This document shows, one piece after another, positions 456 to 38,752 of a stretch of 64,000 bases of DNA. The DNA lies in assembly GCF_003254475.1 (NCBI RefSeq), contig NZ_QFYQ01000001.1, positions 3,252,001 to 3,316,000 of the forward strand, given 5' to 3'. A model generated the notes under the pieces. That model was not told the DNA's origin and did not search any database. It worked only from the letters and a program-made list of their open reading frames with translations. Positions within the stretch are counted from its first letter, which is position 1; each line of letters begins with the position of its first letter. The position numbers were made by a program, and so were the translations under genes. This stretch comes from Phenylobacterium soli. GTDB lineage: Bacteria; Pseudomonadota; Alphaproteobacteria; Caulobacterales; Caulobacteraceae.

Positions 456-497
456 TTGAGGTGCGTCAAAGCGGTCTTCTGGCCCCGGGCCTATTCG
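456..497 (+). promoter_or_regulatory. FNR/FixK-type promoter for the rhodanese-RND-ArsR operon
   Basis: TTGAGGTGCGTCAA (456-469) is a TTGA-N6-TCAA dyad of the CRP/FNR family. A -10-like TATTCG starts at 492, 29.5 nt from the dyad centre, which is the class II geometry with the box at -41.5. The predicted transcription start is near 504, about 90 nt before the rhodanese ATG. In the minus direction the matching -10 position (433-428) reads ATCATG and would lie inside the start of the flavoprotein gene, so the plus direction is preferred. Confidence 0.65.
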
Positions 498-522
498 GAA
501 CAGGCTTGAACCGGCCGCCTCT

Positions 523-542
523 ATTCATATATGCGCATTCAT
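523..542. promoter_or_regulatory. AT-rich direct repeat in the 5' leader, possible ArsR operator
   Basis: ATTCAT occurs at 523-528 and again at 537-542 within a stretch that is far more AT-rich than its surroundings. It lies just downstream of the predicted transcription start of the operon that ends in an ArsR-family gene. Repression by binding there would fit autoregulation. The sequence does not match the published ATTC-N8-GAAT operator of SqrR, so the assignment is speculative. Confidence 0.3.
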
Positions 543-591
543 GCATGTTATGGCAACCGGGTCGCGCCGAGCCTTTCCAGGAACCCTGCCC

Positions 592-957
592 ATGTTCGGA
601 AAAACCAAGACCAAGGACCTCACGCCCCACGAGGTCGACGCCCTGCTCAAGAAGGGCGAGATCGTGCTGATCGACGTCCGCGAGCCGGCCGAGTTCGCCG
701 CGGGCCGCATCCACGGGGCGCTGAACTTCCCGCTCAGCACCTTCGATCCCAAGGCCCTCCCCCTGCCCGACGCGGCCAAGAAGGTCGTGCTCCAGTGCGG
801 CTCGGGCAAGCGATCGGCCAACGCCATCGAAATGTGCCGCCGGGCCGGCGTCGACGTCGACAGTCACCTGGGCGGCGGCATCATGGCCTGGCGGGCCGCG
901 GGCCTGCCGACCACAGTGTTCGACCCGACCAGCGGCGCCGTGCGCGACGCCGGCTGA
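592..957 (+). CDS. single-domain rhodanese (sulfurtransferase)
   Basis: This 121-aa protein is one rhodanese domain. It has the VLIDVREPAEF start motif, a GRIHGALNFPL segment and an active-site loop CGSGKRS with the catalytic cysteine at residue 69. Rhodaneses move sulfane sulfur from persulfide or thiosulfate to an acceptor. The ATG at 592 is preferred over the upstream in-frame ATG at 541 because it follows AGGAA and gives a domain-sized protein without a leader. It is the first gene of an operon with the RND adaptor, the pump and an ArsR regulator, and it is divergent from a sulfide:quinone-reductase-like gene. That setting suggests a role in sulfide or persulfide detoxification. It is probably induced from the FNR-type promoter upstream. 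Confidence 0.88.
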   Translation: MFGKTKTKDLTPHEVDALLKKGEIVLIDVREPAEFAAGRIHGALNFPLSTFDPKALPLPDAAKKVVLQCGSGKRSANAIEMCRRAGVDVDSHLGGGIMAWRAAGLPTTVFDPTSGAVRDAG

Positions 958-973
958 TCCAGGACCGGCCGCC

Positions 974-2005
974 ATGCGCCTTCAGCCCATCATCGGGGCG
1001 GGGATCGCCCTCGGCCTCGGCCTTGCCCTCTCCGCCTGCGGCGGCAAGACCGAGGCGCCGCCCGTCGTCGCCGCGGCGGCCACCGGCGAGCGCCTGACGC
1101 TGCAGCCGGCCGTCATCCCCGACTGGAAGCCGGTGGCGGCGGTGGTCACCACCCGCCGCATGGGCGAGGCCCGCGCGCGCATCGGCGGCACCCTGATGCG
1201 GCTGAACGTCCGCGAGGGCGATCAGGTGCGCGAGGGCCAGGTGCTGGCGCTCGTGGCCGACCAGCGTCTCAACCTGGAAAGCCGCGGCTACGCCGCCCAG
1301 GCGGCCGCCGCCCAGGCGGAGGCGGTACGCGCCCAGGCCGACTACGCGCGCGTCAAGACGCTCTACGAGAAGGGCATCTATGCGAAGGCCCGGCTCGACC
1401 AGGCCGAGGCCTCCAACAAGGCCGCGCTGGGATCCTTCGAGGCGGCCCGCGCCCAGGCCGCGGCGAGCGCCGAGCTCAACGCCCAGGGCGCGATCCTGGC
1501 CCCCGCCTCCGGGCGGGTGCTGAAGGCCGACGTGCCGGCCGGCGCGGTGGTCAGCCCCGGCCAGACGGTGGTCACCGTCACCGCCGGCGAGCCGCTGCTG
1601 CGCCTGGAAGCCCCCGAGGCCCAGGCCAGAACCCTGCACGTGGGCGACAGGGTCCGGCTTGACGGCCGCGACCTGCCCGGCCCCACGGCCGAAGGGGTCA
1701 TCGTCCAGGTCTATCCGGCGATCACCGCCGGCCGCGTCACCGCAGACATCGCAGTCCCCGGCCTCGCCGCCGACCGCGTCGGCCAGAGCGTGCGGGTCAT
1801 GGTCAAGGTCGGCGAGCGGTCCGCCATCGTCATCCCGAGCCGCTTCGTCGCCAACCGCTACGGCATCGACTACGTGCGGGTGCTCGACCGCCAGGGCCAC
1901 GCCTCGGACGTGGCCGTCCAGCTCGCCCCCGGCCCCGACGCCGGCCGCGTCGAGGTGCTGTCGGGCGTCGGCGGCGGCGACGTGATCCTCGCACCCAAGG
2001 GCTGA
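974..2005 (+). CDS. RND efflux periplasmic adaptor lipoprotein
   Basis: A 343-aa membrane-fusion protein. Residues 1-22 form a lipoprotein signal peptide with lipobox LSAC (Cys22), so the mature protein should be anchored in the inner membrane. A split biotinyl-lipoyl domain (about residues 70-100 and 170-205) flanks an Ala/Gln-rich helical hairpin (about 100-165), followed by beta-barrel and membrane-proximal domains. Adaptors of this type link an RND pump to an outer-membrane channel. The stop codon is 3 nt from the pump gene start, and the rhodanese stop is 16 nt upstream, so the genes are co-transcribed. No outer-membrane TolC-like gene accompanies them here. The substrate cannot be read from sequence. 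Confidence 0.9.
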   Translation: MRLQPIIGAGIALGLGLALSACGGKTEAPPVVAAAATGERLTLQPAVIPDWKPVAAVVTTRRMGEARARIGGTLMRLNVREGDQVREGQVLALVADQRLNLESRGYAAQAAAAQAEAVRAQADYARVKTLYEKGIYAKARLDQAEASNKAALGSFEAARAQAAASAELNAQGAILAPASGRVLKADVPAGAVVSPGQTVVTVTAGEPLLRLEAPEAQARTLHVGDRVRLDGRDLPGPTAEGVIVQVYPAITAGRVTADIAVPGLAADRVGQSVRVMVKVGERSAIVIPSRFVANRYGIDYVRVLDRQGHASDVAVQLAPGPDAGRVEVLSGVGGGDVILAPKG

Positions 2006-2008
2006 GCC

Positions 2009-5245: not shown

Positions 5246-5247
5246 CG

Positions 5248-5644: not shown

Positions 5645-8047
5645 CTAGGCGGCCTGCGCCTTGGCCTCGGCCTCCCGCACCACCGCCAGGGTCTTCGGCA
5701 GGCTCTGCGGGTTCACGCTCATCGACTCGATGCCGATCTGGGTGAGGAAGGCGGCGATCTCGGGATAGGTGGCCGGCGCCTCGCCGCAGATGCCCACGTG
5801 GCGGCCGTTGCGCTTGGCCCCGGCGACCGCCAGGCGGAGCATCTCCAGCACCCCGGGGTCGCGTTCGTCGAAATCGAAGGCGACGACTTCGGAGTCGCGA
5901 TCGACGCCGAGCGTCAGCTGGGTCAGGTCGTTGGAGCCGATGGAGAAGCCGTCGAACAGCTTGGCGAAGGCGTCGATCTGGATGACATTGTTGGGGATCT
6001 CGCACATCACATAGACCTCGAGCCCGGCCTCGCCGCGGACCAGGCCGTTCGCCGCCATGGCGGCGAGCACCCGCTCCGCCTCGTCCACCCGGCGGCAGAA
6101 GGGCACCATGACCTTCAGGTTGGTGAGGCCGAGATCGGCGCGCACCCGGCGCAGCGCCTCGCACTCGAGCGCGAAGCCGTCAGCGTACATCGGATGGGCG
6201 TAGCGGGCCGCGCCGCGGAAGCCCAGCATGGGGTTCTCCTCGTGCGGCTCGAAGCCCGCGCCCCCGAGCAGGCGGGCGTACTCGTTGGTCTTGAAGTCCG
6301 ACAGGCGCACGATCACCGGCCGCGGATAGAAGGCGGCGGCGATCACCCCGGCGCCCTGGGTCAGCTGGTCGATGAAATATTCCCGCGGCGTGTCGTACCC
6401 CGCCGCGAGCTTGGCGATGGTGGTGCGGTCGCGCGGCGAGATCACCTGGTCGGGATGGGCCGCGGCCATGGGGTGCATGGCGATCTGCTCGCCGATGATG
6501 AACTCGAGGCGCGCCAGACCGACCCCGGCGCTCGGCAGCAGGGCCGAGCGGAAGGCGAGGTCCGGATGGGCGAGGTTGAGCATCACGTGGGTCTGCGGCT
6601 GGACGAGGTCCCTGGCCGAGAGCCGCTCGACCTCGAACGGCACGTCGCCGCGATAGACATGGCCCTGATCGCCCTCGGCGCAGGAGACGGTGACGCGGCC
6701 GCCGCGGGCCAGCTTCTCGGTGGCGTCCCCCGTCCCTACCACCGCAGGAACGCCGAGTTCGCGCGCGACGATGGCCGCGTGGCAGGTGCGCCCGCCGCGG
6801 TCGGTGACGATGCCGGCGGCGCGCTTCATCACCGGCTCCCAGTCGGGGCTGGTGGATGAGGCGACCAGCACCTCGCCGGTCTGGAAGGCTTCGAGGTCCC
6901 TGGCGTTGCGGATGACCCGCACGGCGCCGGCCGCGACCCTCTCGCCCACCGCCTTGCCGGCGACCAGCACCTCGCCCTTGCCGGTCAGACGATAGGTCTC
7001 GATCTCCGCCCCGCGCTGGGAGGCGACGGTCTCGGGCCGCGCCTGGACGATGAACAGCTGGCCGCTGACGTCGTCCTTGGCCCACTCGATGTCCATCGGC
7101 ATCGGGTGGCCGCCGCGCTTGGAGTAGTGGTCCTCGATCCGGATCGCGACGTCGGCGAGCTTGAGCACCTCCTCGTCGGCCAGGCAGAACTCGGCCTGCT
7201 CGGCCTTGGCGATCTTCACCGTCTGGATGGCGGCGCCACGGCGCTCCTCGCGCCAGGCGAGCTTGGTCTCCTTAGAGCCGAGGCTGCGCTTGAGGACCTT
7301 GCGATAGCCCTGCCGGAAGGTCGGTTTGTGGACGTAGAACTCGTCCGGATCGACCTTGCCCTGGACGATGCTCTCGCCCAGGCCATAGGCGCCGGTGACG
7401 AAGACCACGTCGCGGAAGCCGCTCTCGGTGTCGAGGGTGAAGATGACGCCGCTCGCCGCGTCGTCCGAGCGGACCATCTGCATGACGGCCACGGAGAGGT
7501 AGACCTTGAAGTGATCGAAGCCGTTGTTGGCCCGGTAGACGATCGCCCGGTCGGTGAAGATCGAGGCGAAGCAGCGCCGGCAGGCCTCGATCAGGCCCGC
7601 GTCGTCGCGGATGTGCAGATAGCTCTCGTGCTGGCCGGCGAAGCTGGCGGTCGGCAGGTCCTCCGCCGTCGCCGACGAGCGCACGGCGACGCTGAGCGCA
7701 CCGCCGCAGATCCGCTTCAGCTCGTGGAAGGCCGCGAGGATCTCCCGGCGCAGCGCCTCGCCGCCCGTGGCCCGGTAGACGATGTCGCGCGCCTTGGCGG
7801 CCCGGACGGACAGCTCCTCCACGTCGTCGACGTCGAGGTCGTCCAGGAGGCGGTGCAGCGGCTCCCAGGCGTTCGCCTGGGTGAGCGCCTCGCGATAGGC
7901 GTTGGCGGTGATCGCAAATCCGCGCGGCACCCCGACCTCGGCGCCCTCGAGCAGCCGGTAGAGCTCTCCCAGGGAGGCCGTCTTGCCGCCCACCAGCGGT
8001 ACGTCGCTCAGCCCCAGCGTCTCGAAGGGTCGGATGTCGTCAGCCAT
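5645..8047 (-). CDS. ppsA: phosphoenolpyruvate synthase
   Basis: An 800-aa PEP synthase (pyruvate, water dikinase). It makes PEP, AMP and phosphate from pyruvate, ATP and water, feeding gluconeogenesis. Domains follow the family order: an N-terminal ATP-grasp part (VGGKTASLGEL, AVRSSATAEDLPTASFAGQ), a swivelling phosphohistidine domain with GGRTCHAAI (His423), and a C-terminal PEP/pyruvate barrel with MCEIPNNV, SIGSNDLTQ and the acid/base cysteine in GICGEAPA. Length and motifs are complete. It lies directly downstream of the ABC exporter genes on the same strand but has its own FNR-type promoter. That suggests PEP production is raised when oxygen is limiting. Confidence 0.96.
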   Translation of the reverse strand: MADDIRPFETLGLSDVPLVGGKTASLGELYRLLEGAEVGVPRGFAITANAYREALTQANAWEPLHRLLDDLDVDDVEELSVRAAKARDIVYRATGGEALRREILAAFHELKRICGGALSVAVRSSATAEDLPTASFAGQHESYLHIRDDAGLIEACRRCFASIFTDRAIVYRANNGFDHFKVYLSVAVMQMVRSDDAASGVIFTLDTESGFRDVVFVTGAYGLGESIVQGKVDPDEFYVHKPTFRQGYRKVLKRSLGSKETKLAWREERRGAAIQTVKIAKAEQAEFCLADEEVLKLADVAIRIEDHYSKRGGHPMPMDIEWAKDDVSGQLFIVQARPETVASQRGAEIETYRLTGKGEVLVAGKAVGERVAAGAVRVIRNARDLEAFQTGEVLVASSTSPDWEPVMKRAAGIVTDRGGRTCHAAIVARELGVPAVVGTGDATEKLARGGRVTVSCAEGDQGHVYRGDVPFEVERLSARDLVQPQTHVMLNLAHPDLAFRSALLPSAGVGLARLEFIIGEQIAMHPMAAAHPDQVISPRDRTTIAKLAAGYDTPREYFIDQLTQGAGVIAAAFYPRPVIVRLSDFKTNEYARLLGGAGFEPHEENPMLGFRGAARYAHPMYADGFALECEALRRVRADLGLTNLKVMVPFCRRVDEAERVLAAMAANGLVRGEAGLEVYVMCEIPNNVIQIDAFAKLFDGFSIGSNDLTQLTLGVDRDSEVVAFDFDERDPGVLEMLRLAVAGAKRNGRHVGICGEAPATYPEIAAFLTQIGIESMSVNPQSLPKTLAVVREAEAKAQAA

Positions 8048-8076: not shown

Positions 8077-8118
8077 AGCCTAGGCAAGCTGGGCGGCGCG
8101 ATCCTTGAGCGACGTCAA
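8077..8118 (-). promoter_or_regulatory. FNR/FixK-type promoter of ppsA
   Basis: The dyad TTGAGCGACGTCAA occupies 8105-8118. On the minus strand a TAGGCT -10 element (8082-8077) starts 29.5 nt from the dyad centre. Predicted transcription starts near 8070, about 23 nt ahead of the ppsA ATG. One half-site contains the TGA stop codon of the upstream HlyD-like gene, so the promoter sits exactly at the gene border. Confidence 0.72.
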
Positions 8119-9314
8119 TTCCCGCGTTCGCGCACCCGACCGCCGTCGCGGACCTTGTCGGAGGGGAAGACGATGACCGCCTGGCCGGGCGAGAGGCCCT
8201 TGCGGATCTCGGCCTCGCGGTCGGTCAGGGCGCCGACCTCGACCGGCGTCAGCCGCGCCCGGCCGTCGACGAACCGGTAGACCGCCCAGCCGCCGTCCTG
8301 GCGGACAAGGGCCCCGAGCGGCGCCTTCAGGGCGTCGGCCTCGCGCCGCAGGATGACCCGGCCCCAGACGCGGTAGCCCGGCCCCAGCTTGCGCCAGGTC
8401 TTCGCATCGCCGGTGAACTGCAACATCACCAGCACCCGTTGTTCCTCGACCCCGAGGGCCGAGGTCTTGGTGAACGCCTGCGGCTCGACGCGCCGGACGA
8501 GGGCCGGCAGCACGCCCGGCCCGCCCCAGTCGTAGATCTCGGCCGGCATGCCCTCGCGGATCCGCACGGCGTCCTGGCTGAGGAATTCGATGGCCGTCTC
8601 GAGGCCGCGCTGGTCGCTGACCTCCACGAGGGGCGCGCCCATCTGCACCGTCCGCTCGCTCTCCTGCAGCACCCGGGTGACGTAGCCGGAGGCCGGTGAG
8701 GTGACCGTCACCACCTGGGCGCCGGCGGCTTCCGGGCCCAGCAGGGCGGCCTGGGCGACGGCGAGTTCCGAGCGCCGCACGTTGAGGGTGGCGGTGGCCG
8801 CGCGCACGGCGGCCCGGTCGGCGCGCGCCGTGGATTCGGCCACGTCCAGCGCCTGGCGGGAGGCGAAGCCCTTATCCGCCAGGATGCGCACGCGGACGAG
8901 GTCGTTTTCGGTCTTGCGCGCCTGGGCGGCGAGCTGGTCGTGCTGGGCCTGGGCCGCGCCGACGGCCGCGCGCGCGGCGGCGACGCCCGCCTGGGCCTGC
9001 GCCCGCGCCCGCGGGTCGAGGAGGTCGGGGGACGCGGGCCGGATGCGGGCGACCGCCGTCGCGCCGGCCTCCACGCGGTCCCCGACCTTCAGGGGCACGC
9101 GCTCGAGGCGGCCGGACACCGGCGCGGAGACCACATAGGCCTCGCGCACCCGGGCATAGCCCTGGTCGGCGACGGTCTCGGCGATCGGGCCGCGAGCGAC
9201 CTTGGTCACCACGACCTCGGCCGGCCGGGGCGCCAGGGTGAGGCCGAGCAGGCTTGCGACGATCGCGACCACGACCCCGCCCAGCACCCATCGCGTCCAT
9301 CTGGTCTTGGCCAC
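8115..9314 (-). CDS. HlyD/MacA-like adaptor of an ABC exporter
   Basis: A 399-aa membrane-fusion protein with one N-terminal anchor helix (about residues 9-28). After it come a lipoyl half (VSAPVSGRLERVPLKVGDRV), a long Ala/Gln/Arg-rich coiled-coil hairpin (about 100-190) and the second lipoyl half (VTSPASGYVTRVL). The order matches MacA-type adaptors that join an FtsX-fold ABC exporter to an outer-membrane channel. It is the third gene of an operon: ATPase, permease (GTGA overlap), adaptor (3-nt gap). The substrate is unknown. Its stop codon lies inside the FNR box that serves ppsA. Confidence 0.88.
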   Translation of the reverse strand: MAKTRWTRWVLGGVVVAIVASLLGLTLAPRPAEVVVTKVARGPIAETVADQGYARVREAYVVSAPVSGRLERVPLKVGDRVEAGATAVARIRPASPDLLDPRARAQAQAGVAAARAAVGAAQAQHDQLAAQARKTENDLVRVRILADKGFASRQALDVAESTARADRAAVRAATATLNVRRSELAVAQAALLGPEAAGAQVVTVTSPASGYVTRVLQESERTVQMGAPLVEVSDQRGLETAIEFLSQDAVRIREGMPAEIYDWGGPGVLPALVRRVEPQAFTKTSALGVEEQRVLVMLQFTGDAKTWRKLGPGYRVWGRVILRREADALKAPLGALVRQDGGWAVYRFVDGRARLTPVEVGALTDREAEIRKGLSPGQAVIVFPSDKVRDGGRVRERGN

Positions 9315-11687: not shown

Positions 11688-12415
11688 CAGCTCATCTCCC
11701 GCGGCGCGACCTTGCGCGCGTTGACCACGGTCTCGGCGATCTGGCCGTCGCGGAACTTCACCACGCGGTCGGCCATGGCCGCGATCGAGGTGTTGTGGGA
11801 GACGATCATCGTCGTCGCCCCGACCGCGGCGGTGACCTCGGCGATCGCCTCCAGCACCTGCACGCCGCTCTCGCTGTCGAGGGAGCCGGTGGGCTCGTCG
11901 CAGAACAGCAGCTGCGGCCGCTTCGCGATCGCCCGCGCAACCGCCACCCGCTGCTGCTGGCCGCCGGAAAGCTGGGCCGGGAAATGGTCCATCCGATCGT
12001 CCAGGCCGACGCGCGCCAGGGCCTCTTCCGGCGACATGGGGTCGGCGGCGATCTCGGTGATCAGGGCGACGTTCTCGCGCGCGGTGAGGCTGGGCACGAG
12101 GTTGAAGAACTGGAAGATGAAGCCGACCGAGGCGCGGCGGTAGCGGGTGAGCTCGACGTCGGTGGCGGCGGTCAACTCGAAGCCGTGGAAGCGGGCCGAG
12201 CCGGAGGTCGCGCGGTCGAGGCCGCCGAGGATGTTGAGCAAGGTGGACTTGCCCGAGCCCGAGGGCCCGATCAGCACCAGTGTCTCGCCCTGAGCGATGT
12301 GGAAATCGACGCCGCGCAGGGCGTGCACCTCCCCCGCCTCGGTCCGATAGACCTTGGCCAAGCCATGGATGTCGAAGGCGGGAGCCGCCTCCGCGGATGA
12401 GAGATGAGCGGGCAT
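11684..12415 (-). CDS. ABC exporter ATP-binding protein (MacB/LolD type)
   Basis: A 243-aa nucleotide-binding subunit with all motifs: Walker A GPSGSGKST, signature LSGGQQQRVAVARAI, Walker B LLFCDEPTGSLD and the switch histidine in IVSHN. It groups by sequence with the LolD/MacB class that partners FtsX-fold permeases. The frame is open upstream to 12577, but that extension would cover the FNR box at 12485-12498. The ATG at 12415, followed directly by the conserved fold, is therefore chosen. It is the first gene of the exporter operon. Confidence 0.93.
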   Translation of the reverse strand: MPAHLSSAEAAPAFDIHGLAKVYRTEAGEVHALRGVDFHIAQGETLVLIGPSGSGKSTLLNILGGLDRATSGSARFHGFELTAATDVELTRYRRASVGFIFQFFNLVPSLTARENVALITEIAADPMSPEEALARVGLDDRMDHFPAQLSGGQQQRVAVARAIAKRPQLLFCDEPTGSLDSESGVQVLEAIAEVTAAVGATTMIVSHNTSIAAMADRVVKFRDGQIAETVVNARKVAPREMSW

Positions 12416-12456: not shown

Positions 12457-12498
12457 AAGATGCCGCGCGGGCCGGCGACAATCCTTGATTCCGGTCAA
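12457..12498 (-). promoter_or_regulatory. FNR/FixK-type promoter of the ABC exporter operon
   Basis: The dyad TTGATTCCGGTCAA lies at 12485-12498. On the minus strand the -10 position, 29.5 nt from the centre, reads CATCTT (12462-12457), a weak but acceptable -10 element. The plus direction has GGGAAT at the equivalent place, so control of the exporter operon is favoured. The divergent SDR gene starts at 12610 and could still be affected. Confidence 0.6.
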
Positions 12499-12609
12499 CC
12501 GCAGCGCGATCCCCGGTTTGGGGAATTTGACGGAGCGCAAGGCCGGCGCCGCGCCCGGACCTAGGTTCGCCGTCCAACCAGGCATCAGCGCGAGCATCAG
12601 GGAAGCTTC

Positions 12610-13377: not shown

Positions 13378-13398
13378 TCGCGCCAGCACCTCTTTACG

Positions 13399-13435
13399 AA
13401 GGGCCCGGGCCAGCCGCCCGGGCCCTTTTTCTTTT
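13399..13435 (+). terminator. intrinsic terminator after the SDR gene
   Basis: A perfect 12-bp stem (13399-13410 paired with 13416-13427) with a CAGCC loop is followed by TTTTTCTTTT. It insulates the SDR gene from the FNR-type promoter that begins 13 nt later. Confidence 0.93.
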
Positions 13436-13447: not shown

Positions 13448-13489
13448 TTGATCCGGATCAAGGGCGCAGGAAGGGCAAGCCAATAGGTT
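13448..13489 (+). promoter_or_regulatory. FNR/FixK-type promoter of the metallopeptidase gene
   Basis: TTGATCCGGATCAA (13448-13461) is a perfect 14-bp palindrome and the best match here to the FNR/FixK consensus TTGAT-N4-ATCAA. TAGGTT at 13484-13489 starts exactly 29.5 nt from the dyad centre. Transcription would begin near 13496, about 29 nt before the ATG. Confidence 0.8.
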
Positions 13490-13524: not shown

Positions 13525-14574
13525 ATGCTTCGAACCTGGATGACGGCGGGCGTCCTCGCCCTCGTCGCGACCCTGCCGCTGGAGCCTGAGCCGATCGCCC
13601 TCACCGGAGCGGCCGACGCCGCCCCGCGGGCCACCGTCGCCAGCGCCTGGACCGGCGAGGCCGCGTGCCTGGCCCCGGACCGGCTGAACGCCCGCTCGGT
13701 GGAGGCCCGGCTGGCGCGGCTCGGCGCCGGCGAGCCCAGGGTCGACCGGACCGTGGCCGGCTTTGAACTCAAGGACGAAACCCGGCCTTTGGCCGAGGCC
13801 CTCAGCCGGCTCGTTCCGACGGACGCCGGCGCGTCGCCCGACCCCGCCTGCCACACGGCCGCCTGCGCCGCCGCGGCGGTGTTCGGCGCCGACATCGGCC
13901 CGAAGCTGCTCTACCTGCTGGCGCGCTACGGCTACAACGGCTCGCCGCTCGTCACCGGCGGCAAGGCCTGGGAGCCCAGCGAACTGGACGAAGCCCTGGC
14001 CGCGTTCGGCGACCTGCCGCCCAATCTGGCGCCCTTCGATGACAGGGTTCGGACCCTGGCGCACGACCACGACGCGGCGCTGATGGAGCGCAGCGACCGC
14101 GATCCGATGGACGACCAGCCGATGGCGGCCAGCGGCGGCCAGATCGACGGCATCCTCATCGGCCACGCCTGGCACGCGGCGACGCCGGCGGAGCGCCGCG
14201 CCTCGATCCTTCACGAGCTCGCCCACCAGTTCATCGAAAGCCAGGGGGCGTCCTTCGGCTGGCCGGACGCCTGGCGGCGCGCCATGGACGCCGACGCCCG
14301 CTTCGCATTCGCGACGGGGCAGTCCACGAGCGTCGTCTCGCTCTACGCCCAGCGCAGCCAGGACGAGGACTTCGCCGAGAGCGCCACGGCGTACCGCTAC
14401 ATGCCGCACCTGCTCGGTATGCGGGCCCCGAACCGCTACGCCCTGCTCAGGGAATGGATGTTCGACGGGCTCGAGTACGCGGCCCCCGACCAGTGTCGTC
14501 CCGAGCTCGCCAGCTCCGAGCGCGAGCACCTCGCGGCGGGCGAAGGCCTGGGGAGAGGGCAGCTGAGCCATTGA
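13525..14574 (+). CDS. secreted zinc metallopeptidase-like protein
   Basis: A 349-aa protein with an N-terminal signal-like segment (MLRTWMTAGVLALVATLPL). It carries an ILHELAHQF zinc-binding motif (His230, Glu231, His234) with a likely third ligand, Glu285, in DEDFAESATAY. This is the gluzincin-like pattern HExxH followed by a downstream glutamate. Four cysteines occur in the N-terminal half. I do not recognise the specific family. It stands between the SDR terminator and the Flp-pilus locus and has its own FNR-type promoter. The FNR box of the following TadG-like gene overlaps its stop codon. A role in processing cell-surface or pilus proteins is conceivable but not shown. Confidence 0.72.
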   Translation: MLRTWMTAGVLALVATLPLEPEPIALTGAADAAPRATVASAWTGEAACLAPDRLNARSVEARLARLGAGEPRVDRTVAGFELKDETRPLAEALSRLVPTDAGASPDPACHTAACAAAAVFGADIGPKLLYLLARYGYNGSPLVTGGKAWEPSELDEALAAFGDLPPNLAPFDDRVRTLAHDHDAALMERSDRDPMDDQPMAASGGQIDGILIGHAWHAATPAERRASILHELAHQFIESQGASFGWPDAWRRAMDADARFAFATGQSTSVVSLYAQRSQDEDFAESATAYRYMPHLLGMRAPNRYALLREWMFDGLEYAAPDQCRPELASSEREHLAAGEGLGRGQLSH

Positions 14575-14612
14575 CCCACATCAACGCCGAACAGCGATAC
14601 CGCGGCTAAGCC
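14571..14612 (+). promoter_or_regulatory. FNR/FixK-type promoter of the TadG-like operon
   Basis: TTGACCCACATCAA lies at 14571-14584, with TAAGCC at 14607-14612 starting 29.5 nt from the centre. The TGA within the first half-site is the stop codon of the metallopeptidase gene. The predicted start near 14619 leaves a leader of about 28 nt before the ATG at 14647. Confidence 0.7.
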
Positions 14613-17830: not shown

Positions 17831-17872
17831 TTGACGTGGGTCAAAGTGGTCAAGCTTTGCGGCCGGTAATCA
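17831..17872 (+). promoter_or_regulatory. FNR/FixK-type promoter of the flp-cpa operon
   Basis: TTGACGTGGGTCAA lies at 17831-17844. TAATCA at 17867-17872 starts 29.5 nt from the dyad centre. The predicted start near 17879 is about 32 nt ahead of the first flp ATG. In the opposite direction the -10 position falls in the tadD ribosome binding site, so only the flp side fits. Confidence 0.7.
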
Positions 17873-17910: not shown

Positions 17911-18105
17911 ATGAACAAGATCGTCAACACCGCCCTGATCAAGGCCGGCAACTTCCTGCACGCCAAGAACGAGAAGGGCGTCACCGCCATCGAGTACGGC
18001 ATGCTCGCGGCCCTCATCGTGCTGGCCATCATCGGCGTGATCGCCACGCTGGGCGGCAACCTGAGCGGCGTGTTCAACAAGGTGGCCACGAACGTCCACG
18101 GCTAA
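17911..18105 (+). CDS. flp: Flp-type IVb pilin, first copy
   Basis: A 64-aa prepilin with the Flp motif: a short leader ending in KNEKG, then VTAIEYGMLAALIVLAIIGVI. Cleavage by the CpaA/TadV peptidase should fall after the glycine. The Glu-Tyr pair at +5/+6 is the family signature, and the mature pilin would be about 40 aa. It is the first gene of the flp-flp-cpaABCDEF-tadBC operon. A closely similar second pilin follows 91 nt later. It forms the structural shaft of the tight-adherence pilus used in surface attachment. Confidence 0.95.
   Translation: MNKIVNTALIKAGNFLHAKNEKGVTAIEYGMLAALIVLAIIGVIATLGGNLSGVFNKVATNVHG
17965..18005 (+). repeat. 41-nt exact repeat shared by the two flp genes
   Basis: These 41 nt recur without a mismatch at 18251-18291 and code for the end of the leader and the start of the mature pilin. 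Identity then continues at about 90% for some 35 nt. This shows a tandem duplication kept nearly identical at the DNA level. Confidence 0.9.
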
Positions 18106-28617: not shown

Positions 28618-28659
28618 AGCTTATGACAGCCCTGGGTATAGTCCGTTGAGCTAGATCAA
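28618..28659 (-). promoter_or_regulatory. FNR/FixK-type promoter of the PAS-GAF-GGDEF-EAL gene
   Basis: TTGAGCTAGATCAA lies at 28646-28659. On the minus strand TAAGCT (28623-28618) starts 29.5 nt from the centre. In the plus direction the equivalent place reads ACCGCA, so the site points toward the minus-strand gene. The predicted leader is about 60 nt. Confidence 0.68.
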
Positions 28660-28705: not shown

Positions 28706-28747
28706 TTGACGCAAGTCAACACGCCCAGCGAGCGATCATGATTTGCT
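28706..28747 (+). promoter_or_regulatory. FNR/FixK-type promoter of the TonB-YfiR-GGDEF/EAL operon
   Basis: TTGACGCAAGTCAA lies at 28706-28719, with TTTGCT at 28742-28747 starting 29.5 nt from the centre. The predicted start near 28754 lies 24 nt before the ATG at 28778. The paired dyad 60 nt upstream faces the other way, so each divergent gene has its own box. Confidence 0.65.
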
Positions 28748-28777: not shown

Positions 28778-30874
28778 ATGAACCATGCCGCCAAAACGAC
28801 GTCGGCCGGACGTCTGAGACCTGCCCTCCTGGCCGCCGCCTGCCTGACCGCGCTGGCGGGTTCGGCGCATGCCGCCGAGGCCGGCGCCACGGCGGCCGGC
28901 GCGTCCGCCAGCGCGGCGCGCGACACCCCGCCGACCCTGGCGGAGATGAGCCTGCAGGAGCTGATGGACGTGGAGGTCACCAGCGTCTCGCGGCGGCCGG
29001 AGAAGGTCGGCGAGGCCGCCGCGGCAGTGTTCGTGATCACCGCCGACGACATCCGCCGCTCCGGCATGACCACCCTGCCCGACGTCCTGCGCCTGGCGCC
29101 GGGGGTCAACGTCGCCCAGGCCCACACCGGCCAGTGGGCGGTGTCGATCCGCGGCTTCAATGACGTCTATTCCTCGAAGCTGCTGGTGCTGATCGACGGC
29201 CGGCCCATCTATTCGGCCGCCTACGCCGGCGTGCTCTGGTTCGTCCAGGACGTGCCGCCGGAGGACATCGAGCGGATCGAGGTGATCCGCGGGCCGGGCG
29301 CGGCGGTGTGGGGCGCGAACGCCGTCAACGGCGTCATCAACATCATCACCAAGTCGGCGGACGCCACCCAGGGCACGACCGTGAGCCTCACCGGCGGCGA
29401 CGGCGCCTCGCGCGAGCAGGCGACGGTGGTGTTCGGCGGCCGGATCTCGGACACCGCCGCCTACCGCGTGTTCCTCCGGGATGTCCGCGATCCGGCGCTG
29501 AAGACCGCGGACGGCCGCGACGCAGGCGACCCCCTGCGCACCTGGGACGCCGGCTTCCGCCTCGACTGGACGCCGAGCGCCGTCGATCACGTCACGGCCG
29601 AGGGCCAATACCTCGCCGGCCGCACGCGCGTGACCGCCGGCCCGTTCCCCGCGAGTCTGCGCGCCTTCATCCCCCTGCCCGTGCAGCCCGACGGCCGCCT
29701 GATCCTCGATGAGCGCAACCAGACCTGGTTCGTGCAGGCGGCTTGGGAGCGGTCGCTGGCGAATGGCTCGGTCTCGGCCCAGGCCTATTACGAGCGCGAC
29801 CGCATCGGCCAATTCGGCGGCATCCTGCGGATGGGCACCCTCGAGGGCGAGGGGCGATACAGCTTCGCCCTCGGCCAACATCATCAGGTCGTCCTCGGCG
29901 CCGGATACCGGCAGCGGGACTTCTCCACCCTGGACGGCCTGGTGATCTCGATCGTCGCCACGGCCCCTGCCGAGCCTCTGCGCCAGGTCAGCCTGTTCGG
30001 CCAGGACTCCATCTCCGTCGCGCACGATCTGACCCTGACCGCCGGAGCCAAGGCCGAGCACAGCACCGAGACCGGCTGGGAGTTCGAACCGAGCCTGCGC
30101 CTGGCCTGGACGGCCACGCCCAACCAGACGTTCTGGGCGGCCGCCTCGCGGGCGGTGCGCTCGCCCTCGATCGCCGACCGCGGCCTGCGTCTGCTGGCCC
30201 CGCTGAGCTACGAGCCCATGTTGATCGGCCTCCAGACCCTGGGCGATCCGAACGCCAAGTCAGAGGTCGAAGTCAGTCTCGAGGCGGGGTATCGCGCCAT
30301 GCTCAGCTCGCGGCTGAGCATCGATCTCGCCGTCTTCGACACTCACTATCGCAAGCTGACGACGCTGACCCAGGGCGCGTCGGTCCTGGTCACCAGCCCG
30401 CCGCCGCCGATGATCGTCATTCCGGCCCAGGTGGCGAACCTCGGCAAGGGCCAGACTCGCGGGCTGGAACTCAGCGCCAACTGGCAGGTCACCCAGGCCT
30501 GGCGGCTGATCGGCAGCTACAGCGCGCTGTCGATCAAGGCCGAGACGCCGGCGGCCAACATCTCGCCCGAGCGCTACAACGACCCGGGATCCTCCCCGCG
30601 CAACCAGTTCCAGCTCCGCTCGCAGCTCGATCTGCCGCACGACTTTGCCCTCGATGCGGCGCTGTTCCGCATCGGCCGCCTGGCGACGGGATCGATCCCG
30701 GCGCACACGCGGCTGGACCTGCGGCTCGGCTGGCGGCCGACCCCGCGGCTGGAGATCGCCGTGGTCGGCCAGGACTTGCTGAAGGCGCGGCATCCGGAGA
30801 TCACTCCGATGGCGCTGCGCGATCTGGAGGAGATCCCGCGGACCGCCTTCGTCCAGCTGCGGACGAACTTCTGA
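28778..30874 (+). CDS. TonB-dependent receptor
   Basis: A 698-aa outer-membrane receptor with a signal peptide ending near AGSAHA. The plug domain (about residues 50-170) includes VTSVSRRPEKVGEAAAAVFVITADDI, then WAVSIRGF and VWGANAVNGVINIIT. The 22-stranded barrel ends in a C-terminal phenylalanine (QLRTNF). No clear TonB box was found. The ATG at 28778 is preferred to an in-frame TTG at 28763 because the predicted transcript starts near 28754. It overlaps the yfiR-like gene by one base (TGATG). The ligand is unknown. The operon suggests that ligand binding at the outer membrane is passed to a periplasmic YfiR-like protein and an inner-membrane c-di-GMP enzyme. Confidence 0.92.
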   Translation: MNHAAKTTSAGRLRPALLAAACLTALAGSAHAAEAGATAAGASASAARDTPPTLAEMSLQELMDVEVTSVSRRPEKVGEAAAAVFVITADDIRRSGMTTLPDVLRLAPGVNVAQAHTGQWAVSIRGFNDVYSSKLLVLIDGRPIYSAAYAGVLWFVQDVPPEDIERIEVIRGPGAAVWGANAVNGVINIITKSADATQGTTVSLTGGDGASREQATVVFGGRISDTAAYRVFLRDVRDPALKTADGRDAGDPLRTWDAGFRLDWTPSAVDHVTAEGQYLAGRTRVTAGPFPASLRAFIPLPVQPDGRLILDERNQTWFVQAAWERSLANGSVSAQAYYERDRIGQFGGILRMGTLEGEGRYSFALGQHHQVVLGAGYRQRDFSTLDGLVISIVATAPAEPLRQVSLFGQDSISVAHDLTLTAGAKAEHSTETGWEFEPSLRLAWTATPNQTFWAAASRAVRSPSIADRGLRLLAPLSYEPMLIGLQTLGDPNAKSEVEVSLEAGYRAMLSSRLSIDLAVFDTHYRKLTTLTQGASVLVTSPPPPMIVIPAQVANLGKGQTRGLELSANWQVTQAWRLIGSYSALSIKAETPAANISPERYNDPGSSPRNQFQLRSQLDLPHDFALDAALFRIGRLATGSIPAHTRLDLRLGWRPTPRLEIAVVGQDLLKARHPEITPMALRDLEEIPRTAFVQLRTNF

Positions 30875-31425
30875 TGCGCCGGCCCCGCACCGTCGCGGCC
30901 GCACGCAACTGGCGCCTCGCCGCTGCGCTGGTCGTCGCGCTGCTGTTCGGCGCGCCAGCGGCCGCCCAGACCGAGTACCAGGTCAAGGGGGCGATGCTCT
31001 ACAACATCGCCCGCTTTGTCGACTGGCCCCAGACCCGACGCGGCCAGACCAGCGTGCAACTCTGCGTACTGGGCTCCGATCCCTTCGGTCCGGCGCTGGA
31101 CGCCTTCGACGGCCGGCCCGTGGGCCAGGGCGTCCTGAAGATCCGGCGCGTCACGCGGACCGAGGAAACGGGCCTCTGCAACATGCTGTTCATCCCCGGC
31201 TCCGAGGCAACGCGCCTGCCCGGCGTCCTGGCGGCCCTGCACGGCCGGCCCGTGCTGACGGTGTCCGAGACGCCAGGAGCCGCCGAGCGCGGCGCAGTGC
31301 TCAACCTCTTCCTCGAACAAAGCCGCGTGCGCTTCGAGATCAACATCGACGCCGCCCAGCGGTCCGGCCTCACCATCAGCTCCCAGCTCCTCAAGCTGGC
31401 GCGCATCACCCACGACAGGACCTGA
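30874..31425 (+). CDS. YfiR-family periplasmic protein (DUF4154)
   Basis: A 183-aa secreted protein with signal peptide residues 1-31 (cleavage near APAAAQ). The core has the YfiR/DUF4154 features YQVKGAMLYNIARFVDWP, the central CVLGSDPFG and the terminal FEINIDAAQRSGLTISSQLLKLA. In Pseudomonas aeruginosa, YfiR binds the periplasmic domain of the diguanylate cyclase YfiN and holds it inactive. Here the next gene, overlapping by one base, encodes a membrane GGDEF-EAL protein, so the same kind of control is likely. Two cysteines in the mature protein could make it redox sensitive, as in YfiR. Partnership with this receptor is inferred from the operon. Confidence 0.9.
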   Translation: MRRPRTVAAARNWRLAAALVVALLFGAPAAAQTEYQVKGAMLYNIARFVDWPQTRRGQTSVQLCVLGSDPFGPALDAFDGRPVGQGVLKIRRVTRTEETGLCNMLFIPGSEATRLPGVLAALHGRPVLTVSETPGAAERGAVLNLFLEQSRVRFEINIDAAQRSGLTISSQLLKLARITHDRT

Positions 31426-34400
31426 TGCCCATGATCAGCCTGAGCGCCCTGCGGGACATGCCCATCGGGCGCAAGCTCTTCGCGCTTTCGGCGGGGATCA
31501 CCGCCCTGCTCCTCGCCGCCTTCGCCGGCGTCGGCATGGTTAAGGAGGTCAGCGACTGGGGCCAGCGCGCGTCGGTGCAGCTGGAGACCTCCGGCCACAT
31601 CATCGCCGCCAACGCCGCTCCGGCCCTGCTGTTCGGCGACAGCCGCGCGGCGACGGAGACCCTGGCCGGCCTGAGCTCCACGCCGCATGTGGTCTATGGC
31701 GCGATCTACGACCAGCAGGGCGCGCTGTTCGCCGTCTATGGCGACGCGAAATCCGCCGCCGCCCACCTGGCCGGGCCGCCGCCCGCCGCGGCGCGGCTGC
31801 AGCGCAGCGGCACGCACGCCCTGCGCGTCGAGCCGATCGTCTTCCAGGGCCAGCGCCTCGGCGTGCTGTACCAGGAGATGGACCTGGCGGAGCTGTACCA
31901 GAAGCTGCTGAACGACCTGGTGGTCATGGTGGTCGTCGCGCTGATGGGCTTCATCACCTACGCTCTGGTGGTCGGCCGCGTGCAGCGCGGCATCGTGCGC
32001 CCGATCGGCGATCTGACGACGACCATGGAGCGGGTGTCGCGGACCAGCGACTACAGCCTGCGCGCCATGCCGGCGACGCGCGACGAGATCGGCGTGCTCG
32101 CCCAGTCGTTCAACGCCATGCTGGCGGTCGTGCAGGACCGCGACACCAAGCTCGCCCAGCACCAGCAAGTGCTGGAGGAGACGGTGCGCCAGCGCACCGC
32201 CGAGCTGCAGCAGACCAACGTCAAGCTGGAGAAGGAGCTGACCGACCGGCGCATCGCCCAGGAGGAGCTGCACGCTCACGACGCCATGCTGAAGGCGGTG
32301 ACGCGCAGCGCCGGCGAGCTGCTCGGCTCGCTGAACCTGGACGACGCCATCGCCCGCGTGCTCGAGCTGATCGGACAGACCCTGGCCGTGGGCCGGGTGC
32401 AGCTGACCCAGATCACCGTCGGGCGAGACGCTCACCTGTTCTCCAGCGTGGTTCAGGAGTGGTGCGCGCCCGGCGTCGAACGCCTGCGTGACCATCCGCT
32501 GCTGAACGGCGCCGACCTGACGCTGGCCCTGCCGCGGCTGGCTTCGGCGGCCATCGTCGGCGACCGCACGGTCCTCGGCATGGACGACCTCACCCCGCCG
32601 CTGCGCGCCCTGATGGAGCCCTCGCACACCACCTCGGCCCTGTTCGTACCGATCATGATCGAGGGCCGGCTGTGGGGCGGGATGTGGTTCGTCGATTCCA
32701 ACCCCACGATGCGCAACTGGACCTGGGCCGAGACCGACACCCTGGAAACCCTCGCCGGGCTGATGGGAGTCTCGACCGCCCGCGCCCGCTACCTGCAGGA
32801 ACTGGCCGACGCCAACACCATCGTCCAGAACAGCCCGACGGTGCTCTACCGCCTGAAGGGCGACCCGCAGCTGCAGCTGACCTACATCAGCCACAACGTC
32901 ACCAAGTTCGGCTACGACCCCAAGACGCTGGTCGCCGCCAACAACTTCCTGCAGCAGATCGTCCACCCCGACGACCAGGCCAAGCTGAACGAGGCGATGG
33001 CCGGACTGATGGAGCGCAACGCTTCGGGCGCGACGGTGGAGTTCCGCCTCATCCTGCCGTCCGGCGGGTTCCGCTGGGTGGAGAACCGCTACACCCTGGT
33101 GCGCGATGAGGTCGGCCGGCTGGTCGAGATCGAAGGCATCATCATCGACATCACCGAGCGCAAGGCGGCCGAGGAGAAGATCGCCCTGCTGGCGCGCACG
33201 GATTCCCTGACCGGCCTGGCCAACCGCGCCACCTTCGTGGAGCGCCTGCACCAGGCGTTCGCGGCGGCCAAGCGCGGCGCCCACCCGTTCGCGGTGCTCT
33301 ACCTTGACCTCGACCACTTCAAGGACATCAACGACACCCGCGGCCATCCGGTCGGAGACAAGCTGCTGCGCGAGACCGCCGAGCGGCTGAAGAGCCGGGT
33401 GCGGGAGACTGACGTGGTGGCCCGGCTGGGCGGCGACGAGTTCGCCGTGCTGCAGACCGAGGTGGCGGACGCCGCCGACGCCGGCGCCCTGGGCGAGGCG
33501 ATCGTCGACGCCCTGGGCCAGCCCTATCTGATCGACGGCGCCGAACTGCACGTCACGGCCAGCGTCGGCATCTCCCCCTTCGCGCCGAACACCACGAGCC
33601 CGGACGTCATGCTCTCGCAGGCGGACCTGGCGCTCTATCGGGCCAAGGAGGACGGTCGCAACCAGTACCGCTTCCACTCCGACGACCTGGACGAACAGGT
33701 CAGCGAGCGGGTGGCGATTTCCACCGACCTGCGCAAGGCGATCCGCAAGGGCCAGCTCTATCTCGACTACCAGCCGCAGGTGGAGCTGCTGACCGGCAAG
33801 ATCGTCGGCATGGAAGCCCTGGTGCGGTGGAAGCACCCGAACCGCGGCCTCTTGAAGCCCGGCGACTTCCTGCGCATCGCCGAGTCCAGCGGCGTGATGG
33901 ACGAACTGGGGCGCTGGGTGCTGGAGAACGCCTGCGCCCAGATGGCGGCCTGGAAGAAGGCCGGCCTCGCCCCGCCGGTGATGGCGGTCAACGTGGCCAT
34001 GCACCAGCTCAAGAACGGCGGGGAGTTCTTCAGCCTGGTCAAGGACACCCTGGAGCGCCACGGCATGGCTCCCGGCGAGCTGGAGCTGGACGTCACCGAA
34101 TCCATGCTGGCCAAGGTGACCCTGGCGCAGAACGACATCCTAGACCGGCTCGCCGATGCGGGCGTGCGTTTGGCGCTCGACGACTTCGGGGCCGAGTATT
34201 CGACCTTCGACTACCTGCGCGCCTATCGCGTGAACCACCTGAAGGTGGCGCGCGAGTTCATCGAGAACGCCACCCACGACACCGGCCAGGCCGCGACCGT
34301 GCGGGCGATCATCGGCGCCGCGCGGGAGCTGGGGATCAAGGTCATCGCCGAGGGCGTGGAGAACGACGAGCAGCGCTCGCTGCTGCTGTCCATCGGCCGC

Positions 34401-34526
34401 TCGACCAAGGCGCAGGGATTCTACTTCAGCGAGCCGGTGGATCCGGCGCGCGCCGCCGAGCTGCTGAAGCAGGGGGCCATCGCATTGCCGCTCGAGGCGG
34501 AGGCCAAGGCCCCGGAAGTCGGCTAG
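31425..34526 (+). CDS. membrane HAMP-GAF-PAS-GGDEF-EAL protein, YfiN-like input
   Basis: A 1033-aa protein. It has TM helix 1 (about residues 17-37), a periplasmic CHASE8-like domain, TM helix 2 (162-186), a HAMP domain (about 188-240) and a coiled coil. GAF (about 295-455), PAS (about 460-585), GGDEF (669-673) and EAL (797-799) domains follow. The N-terminal layout matches YfiN, the target of YfiR, whose gene precedes it with TGATG overlap. The cyclase motif is intact. In the EAL domain the loop-6 motif reads DDFGAE (919-924) instead of DDFGTG, while the catalytic Glu, Asn, DD, Lys and Gln positions look kept. Whether the phosphodiesterase is active is therefore open. Confidence 0.92.
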   Translation: MPMISLSALRDMPIGRKLFALSAGITALLLAAFAGVGMVKEVSDWGQRASVQLETSGHIIAANAAPALLFGDSRAATETLAGLSSTPHVVYGAIYDQQGALFAVYGDAKSAAAHLAGPPPAAARLQRSGTHALRVEPIVFQGQRLGVLYQEMDLAELYQKLLNDLVVMVVVALMGFITYALVVGRVQRGIVRPIGDLTTTMERVSRTSDYSLRAMPATRDEIGVLAQSFNAMLAVVQDRDTKLAQHQQVLEETVRQRTAELQQTNVKLEKELTDRRIAQEELHAHDAMLKAVTRSAGELLGSLNLDDAIARVLELIGQTLAVGRVQLTQITVGRDAHLFSSVVQEWCAPGVERLRDHPLLNGADLTLALPRLASAAIVGDRTVLGMDDLTPPLRALMEPSHTTSALFVPIMIEGRLWGGMWFVDSNPTMRNWTWAETDTLETLAGLMGVSTARARYLQELADANTIVQNSPTVLYRLKGDPQLQLTYISHNVTKFGYDPKTLVAANNFLQQIVHPDDQAKLNEAMAGLMERNASGATVEFRLILPSGGFRWVENRYTLVRDEVGRLVEIEGIIIDITERKAAEEKIALLARTDSLTGLANRATFVERLHQAFAAAKRGAHPFAVLYLDLDHFKDINDTRGHPVGDKLLRETAERLKSRVRETDVVARLGGDEFAVLQTEVADAADAGALGEAIVDALGQPYLIDGAELHVTASVGISPFAPNTTSPDVMLSQADLALYRAKEDGRNQYRFHSDDLDEQVSERVAISTDLRKAIRKGQLYLDYQPQVELLTGKIVGMEALVRWKHPNRGLLKPGDFLRIAESSGVMDELGRWVLENACAQMAAWKKAGLAPPVMAVNVAMHQLKNGGEFFSLVKDTLERHGMAPGELELDVTESMLAKVTLAQNDILDRLADAGVRLALDDFGAEYSTFDYLRAYRVNHLKVAREFIENATHDTGQAATVRAIIGAARELGIKVIAEGVENDEQRSLLLSIGRSTKAQGFYFSEPVDPARAAELLKQGAIALPLEAEAKAPEVG

Positions 34527-35809: not shown

Positions 35810-35872
35810 CGGACCCTCACTGGCGGGAAGCTCGATTGCCGGGCGTCCGATCCGCCCCGCTCCCCGAATGGC

Positions 35873-37048: not shown

Positions 37049-37095
37049 GCGCGCATCGCCCCCGCGCCTCGAGAAGGCGGCATTAATGCACAGAC

Positions 37096-37104
37096 TTATC
37101 CACA
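37096..37104 (+). other. isolated DnaA-box-like 9-mer
   Basis: TTATCCACA is a perfect match to the bacterial DnaA box, in the short gap upstream of the ParA-like gene. There is only one copy and no AT-rich unwinding region, so it is not an origin. It might let DnaA affect expression of the ParA-like gene. Confidence 0.35.
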
Positions 37105-37145
37105 GGTCGAATCAGTGTCGCTTCGAACCCTGGGTTGCAGCCCGT

Positions 37146-37919
37146 TCAGGCGCCCGGCTCGACTTCCTTCACGTTCGTGCAGCCGGCGTCCTTGAGGACC
37201 GCCATCAGCTCGGCGACGGTGGCCGCCACCTCCTCCGGGTCGCGGCCGCGCAGGACGAGGTTGGAGCCGTAGCCGTCCGGTCCGAAGAACGGATAGCTGC
37301 CAAGCGACATGGCGGGATGGGCCCGGGCGACGCCTTCGAGCGGCGCGGCGATGACCCCCTCGGTCGAGCCCTCCACCCGCACGGTGCGGGAGATGGTCAC
37401 CGCCCCGGTGCGCAGGCGCGGGCCGACGTCCTCGAGCATGCCGCGCATGATCTGCGGCACCCCGGCCAGGACGAAGACGTTGCCGATGGTGAAGCCCGGC
37501 GGGCCCTGCACCGGGTTCTTCACCAGGTCGCCGCCGACCGGCACCCGGGCCATGCGCCGGCGCGCCGCGTTGAGCTCGCCGCCCCAGCGGGCGGTCATCA
37601 GGGCCAGGATATCGGGATGCTCGTAGAGCTCGACGCCGAAGGCCGCGGCTATGGCGTCCGCGGTGATGTCGTCGTGGGTCGGGCCGATGCCGCCCGTGGT
37701 GATCACGTAGTCGTAGCGTTCGCGCAATGCGTTCAGCGCGGCGACGATCTCCTCGATGACGTCCGGCACCACCCGCGCCTCGGCGAGGTCGACGCCGAAG
37801 GTGCCAAGGTAACGCGAGATATCGCGCAGGTTGGTGTCCTGGGTGCGGCCCGAGAGGATCTCGTCACCGATGATCAGCACCGCGGCCGTCACCCGATCGC
37901 CCGTCTCGCCGCTCGCCAT
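37146..37919 (-). CDS. CinA-N-terminal / molybdopterin-binding domain protein
   Basis: A 257-aa protein. The N-terminal two thirds is the MoCF/CinA fold: [28 protein letters not shown] and [15 protein letters not shown]. This is a single-domain relative of competence/damage-inducible protein CinA without the C-terminal nicotinamide-deamidase part. Such proteins have been linked to nucleotide pyrophosphatase activity. It is divergent from sfsA with 57 nt between starts. Confidence 0.85.
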
Positions 37920-37976
37920 CGCGCCTGTCCTCGCCTAGATGAAGCCGTCTTCCGATCCCTCCGACTACAGCCCCCG

Positions 37977-38681
37977 ATGGACCTTCCGCAACCGCTCGTC
38001 CGCGGCCGTCTCACCCAGCGTTACAAGCGCTTCTTCGCCGACGTACTGCTCGACGACGGGCGGGCGGTGACCGCCCACTGCCCGAACCCGGGCGCCATGC
38101 TTGGGCTCAACACGCCGGGCCTGACCTGCTGGCTATCGAAATCCGACGATCCCAAGCGCAAGCTCGCCCACAGCCTCGAACTGGTCGAGGCCGACGGCGC
38201 GCTGGTAGGCATCAACACCCTCCACCCCAATCGGATCGTCGCCGAAGCCCTGGCCGCGGACGCCATTCCCGAAGTCGCCGGCTACACGAGCCATCGGCGC
38301 GAGGTGCGCTATGGGGCGAACAGCCGGGTCGACTTCCTGCTCGAACACCCGGACCGCGCGCCCTGCTGGCTGGAGGTGAAGAACGTCCACCTGATGCGCA
38401 CGCCGGGGCTGGCGGAATTCCCCGACTGCGTCGCGGCGCGCTCGGCCAAGCACCTGCGGGAACTCGAGGCTATGGTGGCGGAAGGTCACCGCGCGGTGGT
38501 CCTGTTCGTGGTCCAGCGCACCGACTGCGAGCGCTTCGCCGCCTGCCGCGAGCTCGATCCCGCCTTCGCCAGGAGCCTCGACCAGGCGGCGGACGCCGGC
38601 GTCGAGGTGCTGGTCTACGGCTGCGACATCGGCCTTGCCGGCGTGACGCTTGGCAGCCGCCTGCCGTGGCGGCGGGACTGA
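37977..38681 (+). CDS. sfsA: SfsA-family DNA-binding/sugar-fermentation stimulation protein
   Basis: A 234-aa SfsA homologue of normal length. It includes [11 protein letters not shown], the [12 protein letters not shown] motif, [12 protein letters not shown] with the nuclease-like acidic residues, and WLEVKNVHL. The fold has an N-terminal OB-like part and a C-terminal PD-(D/E)XK nuclease-like part. The cellular role of SfsA is poorly defined; in E. coli overexpression affects maltose metabolism. The ATG at 37977 gives a start directly at the conserved [11 protein letters not shown]. Confidence 0.94.
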
Positions 38682-38710
38682 TCCCAGGCGCGCGTGACGG
38701 AGCGCTGCGC

Positions 38711-38752
38711 TTGATCCCCGTCAAGGCGCCCTTCGGGACACCCTCCTAGGGT
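38711..38752 (+). promoter_or_regulatory. FNR/FixK-type promoter of the DUF6448 gene
   Basis: TTGATCCCCGTCAA lies at 38711-38724. TAGGGT (38747-38752) starts 29.5 nt from the centre. The predicted transcript starts near 38759, only 13 nt before the ATG, with GGAGG in between. Confidence 0.72.

Follow-up and report, generated by a model that had tools for sequence, protein, structure and literature searches.

The closest described counterpart of the system studied here is the FixLJ-FixK cascade of Caulobacter crescentus, to which FixT and FtrB also belong. In Caulobacterales, FixK is stated to be the sole regulator of its kind, and its regulon, of 70 genes in 21 operons, is described as redox-limited (PMC4999443). 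The FixT protein of Caulobacter carries a four-cysteine motif (PMC7078487). In Bradyrhizobium diazoefficiens, ppsA, the cbb3 oxidase and hemN are under FixK2 regulation, and the part of this source that was available names neither a Tad pilus nor a YfiR module as a target (PMC6201568). Here, a 64,000-nucleotide stretch of the genome of Phenylobacterium soli was analyzed (the window, C1:3252001-3316000; genome size 4,024,128 bases), in which the palindrome TTGA-N6-TCAA (the box, from here on) is found nine times at gene borders.

The genome of P. soli resembles that of C. crescentus in that it encodes FixJ, a FixL-like kinase, FixK-type proteins, a FixT-like receiver beside fixK, and FtrB, and also in the presence of boxes ahead of ccoN and of the FtrB gene. 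By contrast, P. soli has two near-identical copies of fixK, and its FixT-like protein has one cysteine and lacks the four-cysteine motif. The likeness to the FixK2 regulon of Bradyrhizobium lies in the boxes at ppsA and ccoN, FixK2 being also the best solved relative of the P. soli FixK. We consider, with a probability of roughly 0.78, that all nine sites serve the FixLJ-FixK oxygen cascade as class II promoters, and that they form a dense patch of a genome-wide regulon. Unlike the regulon described for Caulobacterales, the one predicted for P. soli extends to Tad pili, cyclic diguanylate (c-di-GMP), phosphoenolpyruvate (PEP) synthase and export.

Number of boxes and their spacing to the -10 hexamer

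As shown in Table 1, nine exact matches to the box were found in the window, all of them where an initial annotation of this DNA had placed them. Dinucleotide shuffling (100 shuffles) gave an expectation of 0.20 boxes, with a largest count of 2. In the whole genome 62 boxes were counted versus 15 occurrences of the reversed pattern used as control, from which a chance expectation of around 0.24 per 64 kb follows, in such a way that the figure of about 0.1 proposed initially was around two-fold too low. Nine of the 62 boxes fall within 38.3 kb; when 62 sites were placed at random 20,000 times, no more than eight ever did. The sites had been taken for a local regulon, an idea that had to be abandoned: 53 further boxes lie elsewhere in the genome, which rules out a separate local regulon and makes of the window the densest patch of the 62-site set. 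None of the nine boxes lies inside a called gene, versus 6 of 62 genome-wide, confirming their position at gene borders; genes were called with a simple procedure based on GC by codon position, so gene starts are approximate. At 14571, the stop codon of the preceding open reading frame (13525..14574) falls within the box. When one mismatch was allowed, a single further box with a fitting -10 hexamer was detected in the window, at 12527, sharing its intergenic space with that at 12485.

At class II promoters the activator site is centered around 41.5 bases before the transcription start, in place of the -35 element. The spacing between the dyad and a putative -10 hexamer was analyzed on both flanks of all 62 sites (124 flanks), with no choice of orientation. 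The dinucleotide TA was found exactly 29.5 nt from the dyad in 17 of the 124 flanks, compared to a mean of 1.76 at other offsets (largest 6, with 6 of 124 at 28.5). A at 30.5 (50 flanks) and T at 34.5 (41 flanks) were the top counts of these bases between 7.5 and 52.5, supporting (T/C)ANNNT as the genome-wide form of the -10 hexamer. In the window, TA at 29.5 was detected in 7 of 18 flanks (mean of 0.24 at other offsets), and around the 53 outside sites in 10 of 106 flanks (mean of 1.52). A similar pattern was found in other genomes, where 144 flanks were taken from homologue loci and other genome stretches, counting repeated boxes once and leaving out L288 and L289: TA peaked at 29.5 (12) and 28.5 (10), the next value being 9 at 46.5, and A at 30.5 and T at 34.5 were found in 52 and 53 flanks, respectively.

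The window stands out with respect to the rest of the genome, with TA at 29.5 in 7 of its 9 sites versus 10 of the 53 outside sites (Fisher p 0.001), and with a looser -10 rule near a gene satisfied by 8 of 9 versus 26 of 53. The hexamers quoted initially for the offset of 29.5 proved exact, seven of them beginning with TA and the remaining two being CATCTT and TTTGCT. It had also been claimed that all nine could be -10 elements; this is sustained for the seven TA hexamers and for CATCTT, the latter fitting (T/C)ANNNT, but not for TTTGCT (28706), a poor -10. The genome-wide scan for the dyad plus the -10 thus extends the class II layout proposed for the window to 53 sites that the initial annotation had not seen, and to other genomes. 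At all nine sites a possible start codon follows the predicted transcription start (dyad + 41.5) at a distance of 13 to 60 nt, the codon having been picked among several candidates at 456, 13448, 14571 and 28706.

Table 1. Boxes of the window with the hexamers and genes that they face, and fixK-type genes of the genome. Positions are those of the window, except where a locus is given.
Feature	Position	Strand	-10-like hexamer	Genes faced or remarks
Box 1, TTGAGGTGCGTCAA	456..469	+	TATTCG 492-497	Rhodanese-HlyD-RND genes (541/592-5245)
Box 2	8105..8118	-	TAGGCT 8077-8082	ppsA (5645-8047, minus)
Box 3	12485..12498	-	CATCTT 12457-12462	ABC ATPase-FtsX-HlyD genes
ABC ATPase gene	11684-12415	-		After box 3
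FtsX gene	9318-11687	-		After box 3
HlyD gene	8115-9314	-		After box 3
Box 4	13448..13461	+	TAGGTT 13484-13489	Secreted-looking HELAH protein (13525-14574)
Box 5	14571..14584	+	TAAGCC 14607-14612	TadG-like (14647-15897) and TadE genes
Box 6	17831..17844	+	TAATCA 17867-17872	Two Flp pilins, Tad machinery to 26134
Flp pilin gene	17911-18105			After box 6
Flp pilin gene	18197-18394			After box 6
Box 7	28646..28659	-	TAAGCT 28618-28623	PAS-GAF-GGDEF-EAL gene (26221-28551, minus)
Box 8	28706..28719	+	TTTGCT 28742-28747 (poor -10)	TonB receptor (from ~28778)
YfiR-like gene	30874-31425			Later gene after box 8
CHASE8-HAMP-GAF-PAS-GGDEF-EAL gene	31425-34526			Later gene after box 8
Box 9	38711..38724	+	TAGGGT 38747-38752	DUF6448 gene (38772-39371)
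fixK-type gene	L042:6438-7091			~2.1 Mb from the other copy
fixK-type gene	L071:3597-4250			~2.1 Mb from the other copy

Genes facing the boxes and their conservation

The gene labels of the initial annotation were broadly right, with the exception of the "protease" after box 4, whose match to M90 is weak and below its cut-off, the protein having a HELAH motif. A terminator-like hairpin (13398-13428) precedes this box. The PEP synthase encoded by ppsA passes two NCBIfam cut-offs, and its closest relatives are from Caulobacterales (73%). For the survey of this gene, 76 of 80 loci were used, leaving out the four with fewer than 350 bases upstream, and taxon groups were assigned by hand. An exact box within 350 bases upstream of ppsA was found in 8 of 15 alphaproteobacterial loci, versus none of the 15 for the control pattern; betaproteobacterial (2 of 5), unassigned (1 of 3) and gammaproteobacterial (0 of 9) loci gave no control matches, and in the other loci box and control were found once each (1 of 44). 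In the 15 alphaproteobacterial loci, 48 boxes were counted over 256,783 bases, indicating that ppsA tends to sit in box-rich neighborhoods. Elsewhere in the P. soli genome, two adjoining boxes lie in the space that separates a PfkB gene from its divergent neighbor (L044:5469-5496; C1:1145968 and 1145982), and a box at this place is found again in three loci of Caulobacterales close to ppsA (L072, L073 and L075), suggesting that genes of the regulon keep their boxes while changing place.

Downstream of 456, rhodanese, HlyD and AcrB-type RND genes are found, and on its other side there is a divergent gene (3-422, minus) cut by the window edge, labeled as sulfide:quinone oxidoreductase (SQR)-like from a match far below cut-off. 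A second hexamer, CATCAT at 28.5, faces this divergent gene, so the direction of 456 is uncertain. Relatives of the HlyD (29 loci), FtsX, TonB and Tad (29 loci) genes were studied among the matches listed. An exact box was found upstream of HlyD in 7 of 29 relatives, and in three genomes (G026, G059 and G019) a box lies between SQR-like and rhodanese genes, as at 456. For the ABC-FtsX-HlyD genes, 14 of the 29 listed FtsX loci of other genomes were used, the remaining ones being weak partial matches. A box was present upstream in 5 of the 14, all of them among the eight with at least 50% identity, and one of the three remaining relatives at this level had only around 600 bases upstream. A small gene lies between the box and the ABC gene in G006 and G019.

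The operon after 17831 encodes, in addition to the pilins, prepilin peptidase, CpaB, secretin, T2SSE and two T2SSF proteins, with an AAA_31 protein in the place of CpaE. YfiBNR is a c-di-GMP module, and P. soli has a similar arrangement, one gene run encoding both a YfiR-like protein and a CHASE8-HAMP protein that carries GGDEF. The YfiR-like protein is above the Pfam DUF4154 cut-off and scores 122.1 versus an NCBIfam cut-off of 125 bits. Unlike YfiBNR, the run begins with a TonB-dependent receptor, and the cyclase adds GAF, PAS and EAL domains. In G032, a genome of another genus of the same family, the order Tad genes, GGDEF-EAL, TonB receptor, YfiR-like and second GGDEF-EAL is kept, and the divergent space contains two boxes, in the position of 28646 and 28706, one of them with TATGTT at 28.5 facing the GGDEF-EAL gene. 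This genome also has a box upstream of flp, with TTACAT at 29.5, and no exact box upstream of flp was found in G076 and G088. Of the 29 listed loci of TonB receptor relatives 19 were used, and among these upstream boxes were detected in G032 and G092 only.

Of the 119 family genomes, only that of P. soli was found to have the DUF6448 gene that follows box 9, and of the 385 genomes of the class three were, P. soli included. Of the two homologues in the 384 other genomes of the class, one has an exact box upstream and no fitting -10, and the other a one-mismatch box with TAGCTG at 29.5. Perhaps this rare gene was acquired, yet with a FixK-type box.

In the rest of the window, genes for a KaiC-type ATPase, KaiB and a PAS/HWE histidine kinase form one run (47108-50562, minus), near which the window scan detected no exact box. 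The G+C content is 0.64-0.67 across 52001-64000 versus 0.69-0.73 before, and this segment includes two DUF1003 genes (53637-54137 and 57744-58304) and also encodes a PAS histidine kinase and, at 62052-63410, an RTX-repeat protein.

Candidate regulators and alternative explanations

The two FixK-type proteins have 217 residues each and are 95% identical (208 of 218 positions, stop included). Both are above the cut-off of PF13545 (HTH_Crp_2; E 1.5e-17 and 5.5e-17), and a FixK2 chain (4i2o) was the best solved structural relative. Their first cysteine lies beyond residue 90, leaving no room for an FNR-type N-terminal cysteine cluster, in agreement with the rule given for FixK (PMC2908626). In the genome, 11 proteins are above the PF13545 cut-off, one of them looking AsnC-like, and inspection of the 11 revealed no N-terminal cysteine cluster of the kind that provides the [4Fe-4S] ligands of FNR. 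A true FNR is thus missing among these 11 matches, making FixK rather than FNR the likely reader; the initial name of FNR/FixK-type boxes holds for the type of box and is narrowed to FixK for its reader. FixJ is above its cut-off, FixL is the best-matching model of the FixL-like kinase, which is below the corresponding cut-off, and the FixT-like receiver, whose gene adjoins fixK, is far below that of FixT. FtrB is above the cut-offs of two NCBIfam models, one of them a Caulobacter model.

The boxes outside the window are in line with a FixK regulon, as a high-affinity oxidase gene is included: a box lies ahead of ccoN (TIGR00780 above cut-off), 68.5 nt from its start. Boxes are also found upstream of the receiver gene after fixK, of a bacterial globin gene and of the FtrB gene, the latter preceded by three (C1:2384310, 2384424 and 2384470). 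More cbb3, hemN, narK/narG and moaA-like genes, labeled from protein starts only, lie beside boxes, and no exact box was found at the other Tad locus, on C2. In the 119 family genomes, TTGAYNNNNRTCAA was counted 1587 times, versus 229 for the control, and the 36 copies of P. soli are the fourth highest number. The excess of boxes over control had a median of 10 in genomes with a FixK match versus 6 in those without (p ~0.01), a modest difference, so the number of boxes does not single out FixK.

In the cascade that we propose, falling oxygen would lead FixL to phosphorylate FixJ, which would raise the expression of the two fixK copies, and FixK dimers would bind TTGA-N6-TCAA centered around 41.5 bases upstream of the transcription start, where they would replace the -35 element and touch RNA polymerase at the (T/C)ANNNT -10. 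We infer that the boxes are bound and the genes activated, that the signal is oxygen, and that the main reader is FixK and not FtrB.

Several observations weigh against this proposal. No fitting -10 near a gene was found at 27 of the 53 outside sites, nor at the ccoN box, and among the five boxed ABC-FtsX relatives it was detected in two, G009 (CATGAT at 29.5) and G008 (TAGGAA at 28.5). Conservation at the Tad operon depends on one relative, G032, and the box ahead of the TadG-like gene is not conserved: of 29 relatives, 2 carry an exact copy in the 1.5 kb upstream, and neither of these has a hexamer that fits at 29.5. In Burkholderia dolosa, deletion of fixLJ raised the expression of flp/Tad genes around 2-fold, a change of opposite sign (PMC5234846). 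FixKCaul, the best NCBIfam model for the two regulators, gives scores of 225.6 and 218.7, below its 300-bit equivalog cut-off, and for this reason the proteins are called FixK-type. Besides, at least 15 boxes were found in 12 of the 35 family genomes without a FixK match, showing that FixK presence and box number are only loosely linked, and FtrB, with its three upstream boxes, is probably able to read the same site.

The data on TadG and on Burkholderia, together with the TTTGCT hexamer of 28706, would also fit an explanation in which some boxes are bound without being class II promoters, 28706 and the non-conserved 14571 being weak, repressing or inert. This we regard as rather unlikely, because TAAGCC stands 29.5 nt from the dyad of 14571, whose predicted start is followed 28 nt later by a start codon, and G032 keeps the box pair at the place of 28646 and 28706. 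A second alternative has FtrB as the main reader of the boxes, or as a joint reader with FixK, in response to a signal downstream of oxygen or additional to it, for instance nitrogen oxides, as in the DNR type. The sites of FNR, FixK and DNR are virtually identical (PMC2908626), in such a way that the box alone cannot separate FixK from FtrB, and the box-rich genomes without a FixK match agree with this; however, FtrB is described downstream of FixK in C. crescentus (PMC3751524). We regard this second alternative as improbable. A chance origin of the nine sites and their spacing has practically no probability left and is ruled out by the shuffles (none of 100 gave nine sites), the spacing peak at the 53 outside sites (Poisson p ~5e-6) and its recurrence in other genomes.

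Predicted link between oxygen and surface attachment

With FixK as the reader, the predicted regulon likely adds to respiration a PEP synthase, the rhodanese-RND genes, an ABC-FtsX exporter, a Tad pilus and a YfiR/YfiN-like c-di-GMP module. The low-oxygen system was known already, and what is likely new is the predicted reach of FixK into the Tad pilus and the YfiR/YfiN-like module. In the open-licence literature, as far as the partial texts of the sources go, no report of FixK or FNR control of Tad pili or of a YfiR module was recognized; nothing was found in it on class II dyad spacing for FixK2, and five terms for oxygen or FixK are all absent from a paper on Tad pili of Bradyrhizobium (PMC12918737).

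We tentatively suggest, from the arrangement of these promoters, that low oxygen could turn on surface attachment via FixK, through one Tad pilus operon and a two-sided c-di-GMP module with paired boxes at a divergent promoter, a layout kept in G032, in such a way that cells would settle where oxygen runs out. As the promoters are few and well placed, this link between oxygen and attachment is open to ordinary reporter fusions. The strict spacing between box and -10 hexamer is a usable rule for the prediction of FixK/FNR promoters in GC-rich alphaproteobacteria. If the proposal is true, pili and c-di-GMP would be under the direct command of a low-oxygen regulator, and this in an order for which a redox-only FixK regulon has been described.

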